Assembly (NCBI GenBank): GCA_016875405.1
Contig: VGRJ01000042.1
Coordinates: 1 to 34,242, forward strand
Direction: 5' to 3'
Source: Deltaproteobacteria bacterium
GTDB taxonomy: Bacteria > Myxococcota_A > Polyangia > Polyangiales > Polyangiaceae
Length of the DNA stretch: 34,242 nt
Positions 18,532 to 23,513 of this stretch are shown in pieces. Position numbers and translations under genes: made by a program. Below the pieces are notes generated by a model. That model saw nothing but the letters and a program-made list of their open reading frames with translations, did no database searches and had not been told where the DNA came from. Every line of letters starts with the position of its first letter. Position 1 is the stretch's first letter.

Positions 18532-19413
18532 ATGCTCGGAGGTCCTCCCGCGTTCCCGTCGCAGCCGCCGCCCGCGCGCGACGACGACATCCGGCCGATG
18601 AGCGCGGTCGCAGCGCTGCTGTGGGTCACCTGCGCGACGTTTGCCTTCCTCTTCGTCGGTACGCTCCTCGTGAGCGCACGCGAGGACGCCGCGCGCGACC
18701 AGACCGTGCTGATCGGCTGCCAGACGGCGGCGTACCTTCTCACGCTCTTCGCGATCCTTCGCGTGCATGGGCCCGACTCGACGATTCGAGAGTTCGTCGG
18801 CCTGCGCGCGACGCACGCGGCCTTCTATCCGCTCGCGGCGATCGCCGGCGGGGCCTCGGCGTTCTGGGGCTCGTGGTTGCTCGATCGCATTCACAGACGC
18901 TTCCCCGACCCCGACAACGCGAACCGGCTCATCGAGCTGTTCTTCGAGGCGACACCGGCGGGACGGGTCGCGATGGGGGTCGGCATCGTCCTCGTCGGAC
19001 CGCTCGTCGAAGAGCTGATCTTTCGAGGCGCCGTGTTCAATCCGATGACGCGTCGCCATCCGACCGAGGCCGTGATCCTCTGGACGTCGGCCCTCTTCGC
19101 AGTCGTACACGTCGAGCCGCGGGTGCTCGCGCCGATCTTCCTGCTCGGCCTCGCGATGGGCTTCCTTCGGGCAGCGAGCGGCTCGCTCGTCCCCTCGATC
19201 GCGTTTCACGTGGCCTTCAACGGCGTGCAGTTCGCCGACCTCTACACCCACGACGCGCCTCCGCCGCCGAACGCGCCACCGGAGGCCATGCCGGGATGGC
19301 AAGCTGGGGCGGGCGCCGCGGCCTTCGGGCTCGCGATGCTGCTCGCGCTCTGGCTGGCGAAGAAGAGCGAGCGCGCACGCGCGGCTCGAGCGCTCGATCG
19401 CGGCGGGCATTGA
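18532..19413 (+). CDS. CPBP-family intramembrane metalloprotease
   Basis: A 293-residue polytopic membrane protein. Three CPBP (Abi/Rce1-like) motifs are present: EELIFRG at 160-166 with the paired glutamates and the arginine, H193 in VVHVEP, and H226 with N230 in SIAFHVAFN. Hydrophobic segments lie at about 24-46, 60-78, 97-117, 147-162, 180-195, 200-216 and 270-287. Rce1 cleaves prenylated CAAX proteins; bacterial members cut other membrane substrates or process peptides, and the substrate here is unknown. The ATG follows GAAGG five bases upstream. It lies between nadB and the deformylase with gaps of 16 and 12 bases, so one transcript is likely. Confidence 0.87.
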   Translation: MLGGPPAFPSQPPPARDDDIRPMSAVAALLWVTCATFAFLFVGTLLVSAREDAARDQTVLIGCQTAAYLLTLFAILRVHGPDSTIREFVGLRATHAAFYPLAAIAGGASAFWGSWLLDRIHRRFPDPDNANRLIELFFEATPAGRVAMGVGIVLVGPLVEELIFRGAVFNPMTRRHPTEAVILWTSALFAVVHVEPRVLAPIFLLGLAMGFLRAASGSLVPSIAFHVAFNGVQFADLYTHDAPPPPNAPPEAMPGWQAGAGAAAFGLAMLLALWLAKKSERARAARALDRGGH

Positions 19414-19425
19414 CGCGGAGGCGAC

Positions 19426-20127
19426 GTGCTCCCTGACCTCCGGCCTCTCGCGGCGCCATCGCTCGTGCTCGCCTTGCTCGCAGGCTGTGCGCCGTCACCA
19501 CCTGCGACCGCGACGCGCCTCCACCACCCCGAGATCATCCAGCTCGGCGAGCCCACCCTGCGACGGCGCGCGTCGGAGGTCGATCCTCGCAGGATCCGTA
19601 CGCCGGAGTTTCAAGCCCTCGTCGACCGCTTGATCCGCGTCATGCGCGAGGCGCCCGGGGTAGGGCTCGCGGCGCCGCAGCTCGGCGTGCCGCTGCGCGT
19701 CTTCGTGATGGAAGACCGCGAGGAGCTCCTCAGGAAGCAGACGCCGCTCGAGCTCGCGGAGCGCGAGCGGGTGGCCTACCCCGTCCGCGTGTGGGTGAAC
19801 CCCGAGGTGAGCCCCATCGGCGAGCGCCGCGCGACCTTTTTCGAGGGCTGCCTCAGCGTCGCGGGCTTCGCGGGAGTAGTCGAGCGCTCGCACGAGGTCG
19901 AGCTTCGGGGCCTCGACCAGAACGGCGTGCCTCAGACGTGGCGTGTCCGCGGCTGGCCTGCACGGACTGCTCAGCACGAGCAAGACCACCTCGACGGAAC
20001 CGTGTACGTCGACCGCATGGCGACGCGGAGCTTCATGCGACTCGAGGCCGCGCGCGAGCGCTTCGGCGGGCGCCCCATCGCCGAGATCCTCCACGAGATC
20101 GGCGTGACGCCGCCCGCCCCGCCGTAG
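19426..20127 (+). CDS. def: Peptide deformylase with a lipoprotein signal
   Basis: A 233-residue protein with the three deformylase motifs intact: GVGLAAPQLG (78-87), EGCLSV (140-145, C142 a metal ligand) and HEQDH (184-188, H184 and H188 metal ligands, E185 the catalytic glutamate). Deformylases remove the formyl group from nascent protein N-termini and are cytoplasmic. This one begins with a hydrophobic segment and a textbook lipobox (SLVLALLAGC, C21). The start is secure: the GTG at 19426 has GGAGG five bases upstream, and no other start codon with a ribosome site lies between the signal and the domain. The enzyme should therefore be exported and lipid-anchored, or held at the inner membrane. 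Whether it is the only deformylase of the organism cannot be judged here. Confidence 0.88.
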   Translation: MLPDLRPLAAPSLVLALLAGCAPSPPATATRLHHPEIIQLGEPTLRRRASEVDPRRIRTPEFQALVDRLIRVMREAPGVGLAAPQLGVPLRVFVMEDREELLRKQTPLELAERERVAYPVRVWVNPEVSPIGERRATFFEGCLSVAGFAGVVERSHEVELRGLDQNGVPQTWRVRGWPARTAQHEQDHLDGTVYVDRMATRSFMRLEAARERFGGRPIAEILHEIGVTPPAPP

Positions 20128-20147
20128 TCAGTGCACCCTCGTTCCGG

Positions 20148-20160
20148 TACCTTGCTCGAC
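20148..20160 (+). promoter_or_regulatory. Candidate -10 box ahead of the 20161 pseudogene
   Basis: TACCTT at 20148-20153 is followed by seven bases and GTG at 20161. TAGTCA at 20125-20130, 17 bp upstream, is a weak -35 match that overlaps the deformylase stop codon. The arrangement is that seen before nadB and the 32683 kinase. Confidence 0.45.
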
Positions 20161-20858
20161 GTGGCGACGTCCCGGTCTGTCGGGTGGAGCGGCTTCGTAA
20201 GCGCGAGCCTCGCGAGCCTCTTCGACGCGAGCTGCGGCGATAGCGAAGGCCGTCGCGAGCCGCCGCCCCCACCTCGTGACGTCGGGCAGATCGCGACCCC
20301 CGACGGAGACTGCATGCCGGCAGGCGTCCAGGGCTGCGCGGAACTCTTCATGGGCGACGAGCGACTCTGTCACCCGTCGAGCGACCGCTGCTAAGGGGAC
20401 GATCCCGCGCTTCGCCGACGGCTGTGTCGTGGTCGGGATCGACGGCTGCGCGCCGGCCTTTCTTACGACCGAGGTGCGCTGCGAACCCTCCGCCGCGGCC
20501 TGCCCCGGGGGCGCGTTGGCGCTGCCCCGGGGGGGCTGCGTCGCGCTCGCCGACGAGAGGGCATGCGGCCCCGCGCCCTTCGGCTCGATCGTCGACGAGC
20601 CCGGAACGGTGTGGGTCGACCTCGACGATGACGCGCGTCCAGCGTCGCGAGGCGGCGCGGGCGGCGGTGGTGTTCGACTCGAGCTCGGGCGTGCTCGAGC
20701 ACGTGCGCGGCGAGGGAGCGCGCTTTGGGCTCGTCGTGCAAGCCTCGCCGGACCTCGCCTACAAGAGCACGACCAACGTGTTCGCGCGCGGCGACGAAGA
20801 CATCCTCACCGACACCGAGTTGCCGGTGCCGACCGCTCCCGCCGTACCGACCGAGTAA
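20161..20858 (+). pseudogene. Frameshifted, probably internally deleted cysteine-repeat lipoprotein
   Basis: Three frames carry consecutive protein-like pieces. Frame one (20161-20391) starts with a hydrophobic segment, SCGDSEG and a proline run, then DGDCMPAGVQGCAELF and HPSSDRC, and ends at TAA 20392-20394. Frame two, from 20393, continues KGTIPRFADGCVVVGIDGCA, CPGGALALPRGGCVAL and EPGTVWVDLDDD. Frame three, from about 20640, gives VVFDSSSGVLEHVRGEGARF, then TNVFARGDEDILTDTELPVP and ends at 20858. Two missing bases at 20392 would restore C-P-K-G-T, matching the C-P-x-G-T repeat visible in CPGGAL. The second shift, near 20640, has no clear join, which suggests deleted sequence. From memory, myxobacterial lipoproteins of this cysteine-repeat type continue into a parallel beta-helix. 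Alternatives are sequencing errors or two small separate genes. Confidence 0.55.
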
Positions 20859-20872
20859 GCCGGGACGACTCG

Positions 20873-21607: not shown

Positions 21608-21821
21608 CGAGTCATGGACTACCGCCTCGCCACCTGCGCGTCCGTCATCCTTCGGTCACACTCCTTTGGCCCACGCTGCCGCGCTCGGTCCCGGGGGGCC
21701 GCCGCAACCACGCAAACGGCGCGCCCCGGCGACGCCCCACTCGGGCGTACGACCGGCCACGTCTTCGTGGTAAGCCCCGGGCTTGCGCGCTCGTTGGGCG
21801 CGCCAGCCAAGGAGCACCGAG
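21608..21821. other. Divergent intergenic region, desaturase and POT transporter
   Basis: 214 bases with no gene I can support. It must contain both promoters. I see no convincing -35/-10 pair, hairpin or repeat; the POT ribosome site AAGGAG lies at its right end. Confidence 0.5.
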
Positions 21822-23513
21822 TTGAGCGCCCCGATCGCCGCCCAAGACCCTACCGCCTCCTCCGCCGCCGCCTCGACGTCGCAGCCAACGGGTCTCTACG
21901 CGCTCTTCTTCGCCGAAGCCTGGGAGCGCTTCTCCTACTACGGGATGCGCGCGCTGCTCGTCCTGTACATGACGAAGCACCTGAAGTTCGACAAGGCGAG
22001 CGCGCTCGCCGTGTACGGCACCTACACCGGGCTCGTCTACCTCACGCCGTTCCTGGGCGGCATGATCGCCGACAAAGTCCTTGGTCGCCGCAAGGCCGTG
22101 ATCATCGGCGGCATCGTGATGGCGCTCGGCCACCTCGCGATGGCGTTCGAGTCGCTGCTCTACCCTGCCCTCGGCCTCCTCATCGTGGGCAATGGCTTCT
22201 TCAAGCCGAACATCTCGACCATCGTCGGCGGGCTCTACGAGGAGGGCGACGCGCGACGGGACGCGGGGTTCACCATCTTCTACATGGGCATCAACCTCGG
22301 CGCGTTCTTCTCGCCGATCGTCTGCGGCACGCTCGGTGAGAGGGTCGGCTGGCACTACGGCTTCAGCGCGGCAGGCGTGGGCATGGTCTTCGGCCTGCTC
22401 GTGTTCCTGTGGGGCCAGCGCTTCTTTGGCAAGGTCGGGCTCCCTCCCGCCAAGGCCGGCGCGGAGCCGCCGACGAGCCTCGTCGCGCGCGACTGGCTCG
22501 ACATCGGAGTGTATTCGACGGTGTCGGTCGGCCTCGTCGTCGGTGTGCTGAAGGCCTGGCCGACGGTCGGTCCCTCGTTCTGGCGCGTGTTCGAGGCGAT
22601 CCCGCTCCCGGTCCAGCTCGTGCTCGGCATCGGCGTGCTCGTCGGGCCGCTGCTCGGCGCCAAGCTCGACCGCACCGAGTGGTCGCGCGTCGCGGTCATC
22701 TACATCCTCTGCTTCTTCAACATCTTCTTCTGGATGGGCTTCGAGCAGGCCGGCGGCACGATGACGATCTTTGCCGACGAACAGACGAACCGCTCGGCCG
22801 GTGGCCTCACCTACGTCGCCATCGGCCTCTTCGTCTGGTTCTGTGCGTTTGCGATCCGTCAATCGACGAAGAAGGAGGCGAGCGGCCAGTGGCTGTGGCT
22901 CGGGCTCACCGCGATGTTCGGCGTGGGAGGCGCGTACTACCTCTTCCGCGCAGTTCAGGCGTTCGGCGGGGCGCCGGCCGAGGACATCCCCGCGTCGCTC
23001 TTCCAGGCGATCAACCCGCTCCTCATCGTGGCGTTCGCGCCCTTCATCGGCTCGATCTGGACGGGCTTCGACTCGAAGCCCGCGACCCGCACGTCGTCCG
23101 CCGTGAAGATGGCGATCGGCATGGTGATCCTCGGGCTCGGCTTCGTCGTCATGTACATCGGTCAGCAAGGCGCGACCGGCGGCGCGAAGGTCGGCCCGCA
23201 GTGGCTGTTCTTCGTCTACGCGCTGCACACGCTCGGCGAGCTCTGCCTGTCGCCGATCGGCCTCTCGATGGTGACGAAGCTCTCGGCGCCGCGCATCGTG
23301 TCGCTGATGATGGGGATCTGGTTCCTCTCGTCGGCAGCGGCGAACAAACTTGCCGGCTCGCTCGAGCACATCGTCGCGCAGCGCAACCTGCCCGTTTACG
23401 GCGTGCTCATCGGCACGTCGATCGGCGCGGCGGTCGTCCTGCTCGCGTTGAGCCCACTCCTCAAGCGCTGGATGCGCGGGGCCGAGGACGCCGAAGGCGG
23501 CGCGGGCCATTGA
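21822..23513 (+). CDS. POT/PTR2-family proton-coupled peptide transporter
   Basis: A 563-residue major-facilitator protein with about 14 hydrophobic helices. The N-terminal signature AEAWERFSYYGMRALLVLYM (31-50) includes the proton-coupling E-x-x-E-R, and the helix 2-3 loop GGMIADKVLGRRKAVIIGG is typical of the family. POT proteins import di- and tripeptides with protons; some bacterial members prefer other small substrates. The start is a TTG at 21822-21824, supported by AAGGAG seven bases upstream. An ATG at 21783 in the same frame would add 13 charged residues and lacks a ribosome site. rlmM begins one base after its stop, so they share a transcript without an obvious functional link. Confidence 0.92.
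   Translation: MSAPIAAQDPTASSAAASTSQPTGLYALFFAEAWERFSYYGMRALLVLYMTKHLKFDKASALAVYGTYTGLVYLTPFLGGMIADKVLGRRKAVIIGGIVMALGHLAMAFESLLYPALGLLIVGNGFFKPNISTIVGGLYEEGDARRDAGFTIFYMGINLGAFFSPIVCGTLGERVGWHYGFSAAGVGMVFGLLVFLWGQRFFGKVGLPPAKAGAEPPTSLVARDWLDIGVYSTVSVGLVVGVLKAWPTVGPSFWRVFEAIPLPVQLVLGIGVLVGPLLGAKLDRTEWSRVAVIYILCFFNIFFWMGFEQAGGTMTIFADEQTNRSAGGLTYVAIGLFVWFCAFAIRQSTKKEASGQWLWLGLTAMFGVGGAYYLFRAVQAFGGAPAEDIPASLFQAINPLLIVAFAPFIGSIWTGFDSKPATRTSSAVKMAIGMVILGLGFVVMYIGQQGATGGAKVGPQWLFFVYALHTLGELCLSPIGLSMVTKLSAPRIVSLMMGIWFLSSAAANKLAGSLEHIVAQRNLPVYGVLIGTSIGAAVVLLALSPLLKRWMRGAEDAEGGAGH

Follow-up and report, generated by a model that had tools for sequence, protein, structure and literature searches.

The window analysed here is a whole 34,242-nucleotide stretch of DNA (contig VGRJ01000042.1) from a soil myxobacterium of the Polyangiaceae, one of whose peptide deformylase (PDF) genes is the open reading frame at 19426-20127. 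The gene lies on the forward strand, as do the parts of it given below, and encodes 233 amino acids between a GTG start at 19426 and a stop codon at 20125-20127. Its PF01327 domain (Pfam E 3e-43; residues 36-200, 19531-20025) is PDF1A-like and is preceded by a type II signal peptide (residues 1-20, MLPDLRPLAAPSLVLALLAG, 19426-19485), by the codon of the lipobox cysteine Cys21, the predicted +1 residue of the mature lipoprotein (19486-19488), and by a Pro/Ala-rich linker (residues 22-35, 19489-19530) that holds no ATG, GTG or TTG and has low pLDDT in the predicted model. The leader thus has the n-region, the hydrophobic segment and the lipobox with Cys that mark a lipoprotein, and, with an Arg in the n-region and the junction MLPDLRPLAAPSLVLALLAG|C21, it conforms to a PROSITE-style lipobox rule; the original prediction had likewise read a hydrophobic segment and a lipobox here.

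A Shine-Dalgarno-like GGAGG, read directly at 19417-19421, stands 4 nt upstream of the GTG, a slightly short spacer, and the frame is closed by an in-frame TGA at 19411-19413, four codons before the start. The only downstream in-frame starts ahead of the PDF domain are GTG14 and TTG17; both are within the hydrophobic segment and neither has a Shine-Dalgarno sequence, the sole one being at the upstream GTG. The original observation is confirmed. We see no credible downstream start in this gene and, as no start codon lies between the Cys and the domain here or in several relatives, no cytoplasmic isoform would arise from the usual start. Moreover, substitutions in the leader and linker of six close pairs are distributed 53/33/77 over codon positions 1/2/3 (chi-square ~18, p ~1e-4), a bias which argues that the leader is translated.

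The leader among relatives

Orthologues were gathered by whole-genome searches at the levels of family, order, phylum and class and from named genomes, their 5′ ends were read, and a uniform scan looked for a start codon, a hydrophobic stretch and a lipobox Cys ahead of the PDF domain. The signal was found in 26 of 32 close relatives versus none of 108 other PDFs (Fisher p 7e-23, a value inflated by the relatedness of the sequences and to be taken as a guide only), the 108 being made up of a sister clade without the signal, paralogues from the order level, and named relatives that belong to Acidobacteriota, Actinomycetota and further groups. Eight further loci from Nannocystis and its neighbours, seven of them with the signal, bring the total to 33 of 40, all 33 having the start codon, hydrophobic segment, lipobox Cys and linker in front of the domain. 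These 40 close myxobacterial relatives belong to Polyangiaceae, Sandaracinaceae, Nannocystis and Archangiaceae MAGs, and the named carriers are Nannocystis pusilla Na p29, two Archangium MAGs, an Archangiaceae MAG, a Sandaracinaceae MAG and a Myxococcales MAG. The conservation of the lipobox cysteine, which the original prediction had proposed to check, is therefore broad, and a tag common to at least 33 relatives is not a misread start.

Leader sequences and lengths diverge between these relatives, and the one invariant leader column of the 22-member alignment A1 is that of Cys21; one copy, L078, is misaligned at this column and yet has a lipobox of its own. The strict PROSITE-style rule is passed by 22 of the 26 tabulated lipobox copies. 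L078 (7686-8597) also has a linker of about 100 amino acids with extra cysteines between its lipobox and the PDF domain.

The signal is absent from six of the first 32 relatives and from L222 (in genome G533), where an ATG or GTG next to the domain serves as the start. A start at a downstream codon without the signal, which had been named as grounds for refutation, is thus found in a minority of relatives (g20, g52, g61 and G533 among them), and not in the window gene or in most others. The existence of these signal-less relatives implies that an envelope location is not essential to the family. About ten lipobox relatives keep an ATG beside the domain, where their signal-less sisters start, so that a second, cytoplasmic product is possible in them; in the window gene no codon of this kind could give one. 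In-frame ATGs in the linker or beside the domain were noted in L064, L065, L067, L076, L077, L079, L081, L082 and L083 and in Nannocystis L214-L219. These codons are what could be said for regarding the lipobox-like leader as a spurious upstream extension of an ordinary cytoplasmic accessory PDF whose real start is further down. The window gene, however, has no such codon and a Shine-Dalgarno sequence ahead of the upstream start alone, and the counts of 33/40 versus 0/108, together with the codon-position bias in the leader, already disfavour this explanation, which we hold to be highly improbable.

All lipobox copies are contained in one supported myxobacterial clade (98/92), which also has signal-less members in Sorangium, Polyangium, Minicystis, g20, g52 and g61. 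The sister PDFs of Sorangium, Polyangium and Minicystis belong to the same PDF1A-like clade at 45-50% identity; they differ in starting at an ATG a few residues ahead of the domain, without a lipobox. Mapped on the tree, the presence of the signal changes 7 times versus 20 in shuffles, a count that does not distinguish gains from losses, and within each lineage only some members have the lipobox PDF. The named-genome search found no lipobox form outside Myxococcota. As for a mobile origin, it was considered and set aside, viral contigs giving only two distant matches and plasmid PDFs being all below 60% identity. In the same broad clade, the PDF of a Parachlamydiaceae MAG (L131) has a hydrophobic stretch before a double Met upstream of its match at 1212, its start being uncertain.

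Accessory status, active site and locus

The source genome (5.02 Mb, 99% complete) encodes three PDFs, the window copy and one each on contigs C13 and C114. The latter two are signal-less, resemble ordinary bacterial PDFs and fall in the class typified by the E. coli PDF (C13) and in the Burkholderia/Leptospira class (C114), the window copy forming a clade separate from both; they have the Pfam family and the motifs in common with it and differ from it in the lack of a signal. Across the family, two to four PDFs were counted in each genome with a lipobox copy, and genome G478 has both forms, one with a lipobox and a signal-less sister. Given these additional signal-less def genes, the window PDF is an accessory enzyme; the second, signal-less def gene that had been anticipated turned out to be two, and the contrary case, of a sole and cytoplasmic def gene, does not apply. 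Vibrio Def2 and the integron PDFs of mobile elements are likewise extra copies beside housekeeping ones with a patchy distribution, but there they count as intracellular enzymes associated with inhibitor resistance (PMC12690207).

The three active-site motifs are intact, as originally claimed, and in the frame and at the positions given for them: GVGLAAPQ (residues 78-85, 19657-19680), EGCLS with the metal-ligand Cys142 (residues 140-144, 19843-19857) and HEQDH, within QHEQDH, with the metal-ligand His and the catalytic Glu185 (residues 184-188, 19975-19989). Domain match and motifs (GxGLAAPQ, EGCLS, QHExDH) together place the protein in PF01327, whose members usually hold Fe2+ at a metal site with one Cys ligand. 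Across the aligned lipobox-bearing copies the metal-ligand and catalytic residues of all three motifs do not vary; an inactive, type 3 PDF was ruled out for the window copy on this ground, its catalytic motifs being invariant and not degenerate.

The predicted fold is confidently that of a PDF (pLDDT mostly above 90). By sequence, the closest solved structures are AtPDF1A (1zxz/4je6, E 2e-46) and the human mitochondrial PDF (3g5k, E 2e-42), and by fold the predicted model is closest to the same two, at 44-45% identity and TM ~0.9; in both respects the window PDF is nearer to them than to bacterial PDFs of known structure, which makes it a PDF1A subtype. It has all three motifs in common with these enzymes, whereas their leader is organelle-targeting and its own is a bacterial lipoprotein signal; eukaryotic PDF1A acts within organelles behind such a leader. 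Separately, the myxobacterial PDFs of this clade are much closer to eukaryotic organellar PDF1A than to other bacterial PDFs with solved structures, a likeness that may bear on the origin of PDF1A.

Residue conservation and predicted fold would fit formyl-Met hydrolase activity. One could argue instead that the fold is used outside the cell for some other hydrolysis, e.g., of other N-acyl groups on peptides or signalling molecules, as an enzyme placed in the envelope would be freed from the constraint that nascent chains normally impose; the invariance of all three motifs in the aligned lipobox copies goes against this, and we regard it as improbable. The same intact motifs would also suit a decoy, in which a lipid-anchored periplasmic PDF binds actinonin-type hydroxamates before they reach the essential cytoplasmic PDFs. 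Natural PDF inhibitors do exist, accessory PDFs can confer resistance to them, and loss of Arg97 weakens actinonin binding (PMC12690207). The Arg97-equivalent, however, is Val, Ala, Thr, Met or Ser in 26/26 tabulated lipobox copies, which suits a weak and not a strong binder, and the loci showed no conserved association with a biosynthetic cluster. This makes the decoy less likely, and we judge it very improbable.

In the window, nadB, cpbp and the PDF are closely spaced (12-16 nt gaps), and the original prediction had noted the neighbouring CPBP membrane protease. This neighbour does not count as evidence: a congener (G004, 98% complete) retains nadB-cpbp-desaturase-POT transporter in synteny without the PDF, other PDF loci have no cpbp, and a CPBP partnership was accordingly dismissed as incidental. 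Three other congeners also have no such PDF, two of these genomes being incomplete, so the gene was either gained here or lost there. Across 41 PDF loci no conserved partner gene was found beyond common Ser/Thr kinases and genus-level synteny.

Location, substrate and significance

The usual teaching is that PDF is strictly confined to the cytoplasm or to organelles and works at the ribosome exit; nascent chains there are its typical site of action, which is not part of the definition of the family. This usual location is predicted not to apply to the window PDF, whose conserved lipoprotein signal predicts export; that export is strongly supported by the conservation of the signal. We consider it rather probable that the protein is an envelope-anchored accessory PDF that works outside the cytoplasm on formyl-Met peptides or N-termini, be they of the cell's own exported and N-out proteins or of prey peptides. 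We also lean towards the existence of a myxobacterial envelope deformylation step, in which a lipid-anchored PDF, present in at least four families, would act on prey formyl-peptides or on the cell's own exported and N-out proteins.

The route that we infer from the sequence, from Sec export through lipidation, signal cleavage and anchoring to the final membrane and the substrate, would be the following. The PDF1A-type enzyme would be exported by Sec, Cys21 would be lipidated (Lgt is encoded in the source genome) and the leader cleaved by signal peptidase II, after which the linker would tether the PDF domain to the envelope. In M. xanthus, lipoproteins with Lys at +2 are typically of the inner membrane and those with Ala at +7 of the extracellular matrix, whilst those of the outer membrane have no noticeable sorting signal (PMC3222651). 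The window protein has Ala at both positions and so, by rules which may not apply in Polyangia, would be destined for the outer membrane or the matrix, the outer membrane being the most likely anchor site given Ala and not Lys at +2. Lys at +2 is found in none of the tabulated lipobox copies, and Ala at +7 is not conserved among them.

Anchored in this way, the enzyme would deformylate N-formyl-Met peptides and those protein N-termini that are out of reach of the cytoplasmic PDFs. Candidate substrates are exported and N-out proteins of the cell itself, formylated signal peptides after their release, and peptides from lysed prey; the deformylated peptides would then be open to aminopeptidases. 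The enzyme would also have to acquire its metal and retain it outside the cytoplasm, a point against this reading. SRP binding blocks deformylation, and N-out membrane proteins are proposed to keep their fMet outside the cytosol (PMC5454389); exported and membrane proteins are also stated to escape deformylation (PMC12690207). Formylated N-termini are therefore to be expected outside the cytoplasm, and the extracytoplasmic substrate suggested by the original prediction is reasonable. The three M24 proteins of the genome were considered as an extracytoplasmic Met aminopeptidase partner and rejected, none having a lipobox; with no conserved partner gene either, no complete extracytoplasmic Met-removal pathway is evident.

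Given export and activity, and as a rough estimate in each case, prey or environmental formyl-peptides are a plausible substrate that stops a little short of being probable, the cell's own envelope proteins and peptides are a possible one that we would put forward only tentatively, and any other substrate is unlikely. A narrower form of our preferred explanation would restrict the enzyme to its own cell, where it would serve the quality control of the envelope and not nutrition, acting on N-out membrane proteins, on exported proteins and on signal peptides after cleavage. The escape of SRP-bound nascent chains from PDF and the proposed retention of N-out fMet (PMC5454389), together with the stated escape of exported and membrane proteins (PMC12690207), speak for it, and the patchy presence within each lineage fits an optional trimming function. 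Bacteria in general should, however, have such a need, whereas the lipobox form turned up in Myxococcota alone, and congeners with the same locus live without the PDF; we thus hold the restricted form to be rather doubtful.

If the envelope-anchored enzyme does act as proposed, formyl groups are removed in the bacterial envelope too, which bears on what becomes of formyl-Met on proteins protected by SRP from deformylation, and on whether predatory bacteria take an active part in processing formyl-peptides from lysed prey. This would be a known enzyme at a previously unreported location: a 2025 survey of accessory PDFs (PMC12690207) makes no mention of lipoproteins or of Myxococcota, and in the openly accessible literature we found no description of a lipoprotein, periplasmic, secreted or myxobacterial PDF. 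Cultured Nannocystis strains make the lipid-anchored PDF testable.

Two further observations concern the DNA downstream of the gene. Between the PDF and the desaturase, window positions 20131-20872 hold a Cys-rich coding stretch that switches frame at about 20390 and looks like a gene that has decayed or suffered a frameshift; in G004, where the gap between cpbp and the desaturase is only ~160 bp, the stretch is absent. Two genes downstream of the PDF, a POT-family (PTR2) oligopeptide transporter is encoded at 21783-23513. Its proximity is probably a coincidence, since G004 has the transporter in synteny but not the PDF; uptake of peptides would nevertheless suit scavenging.
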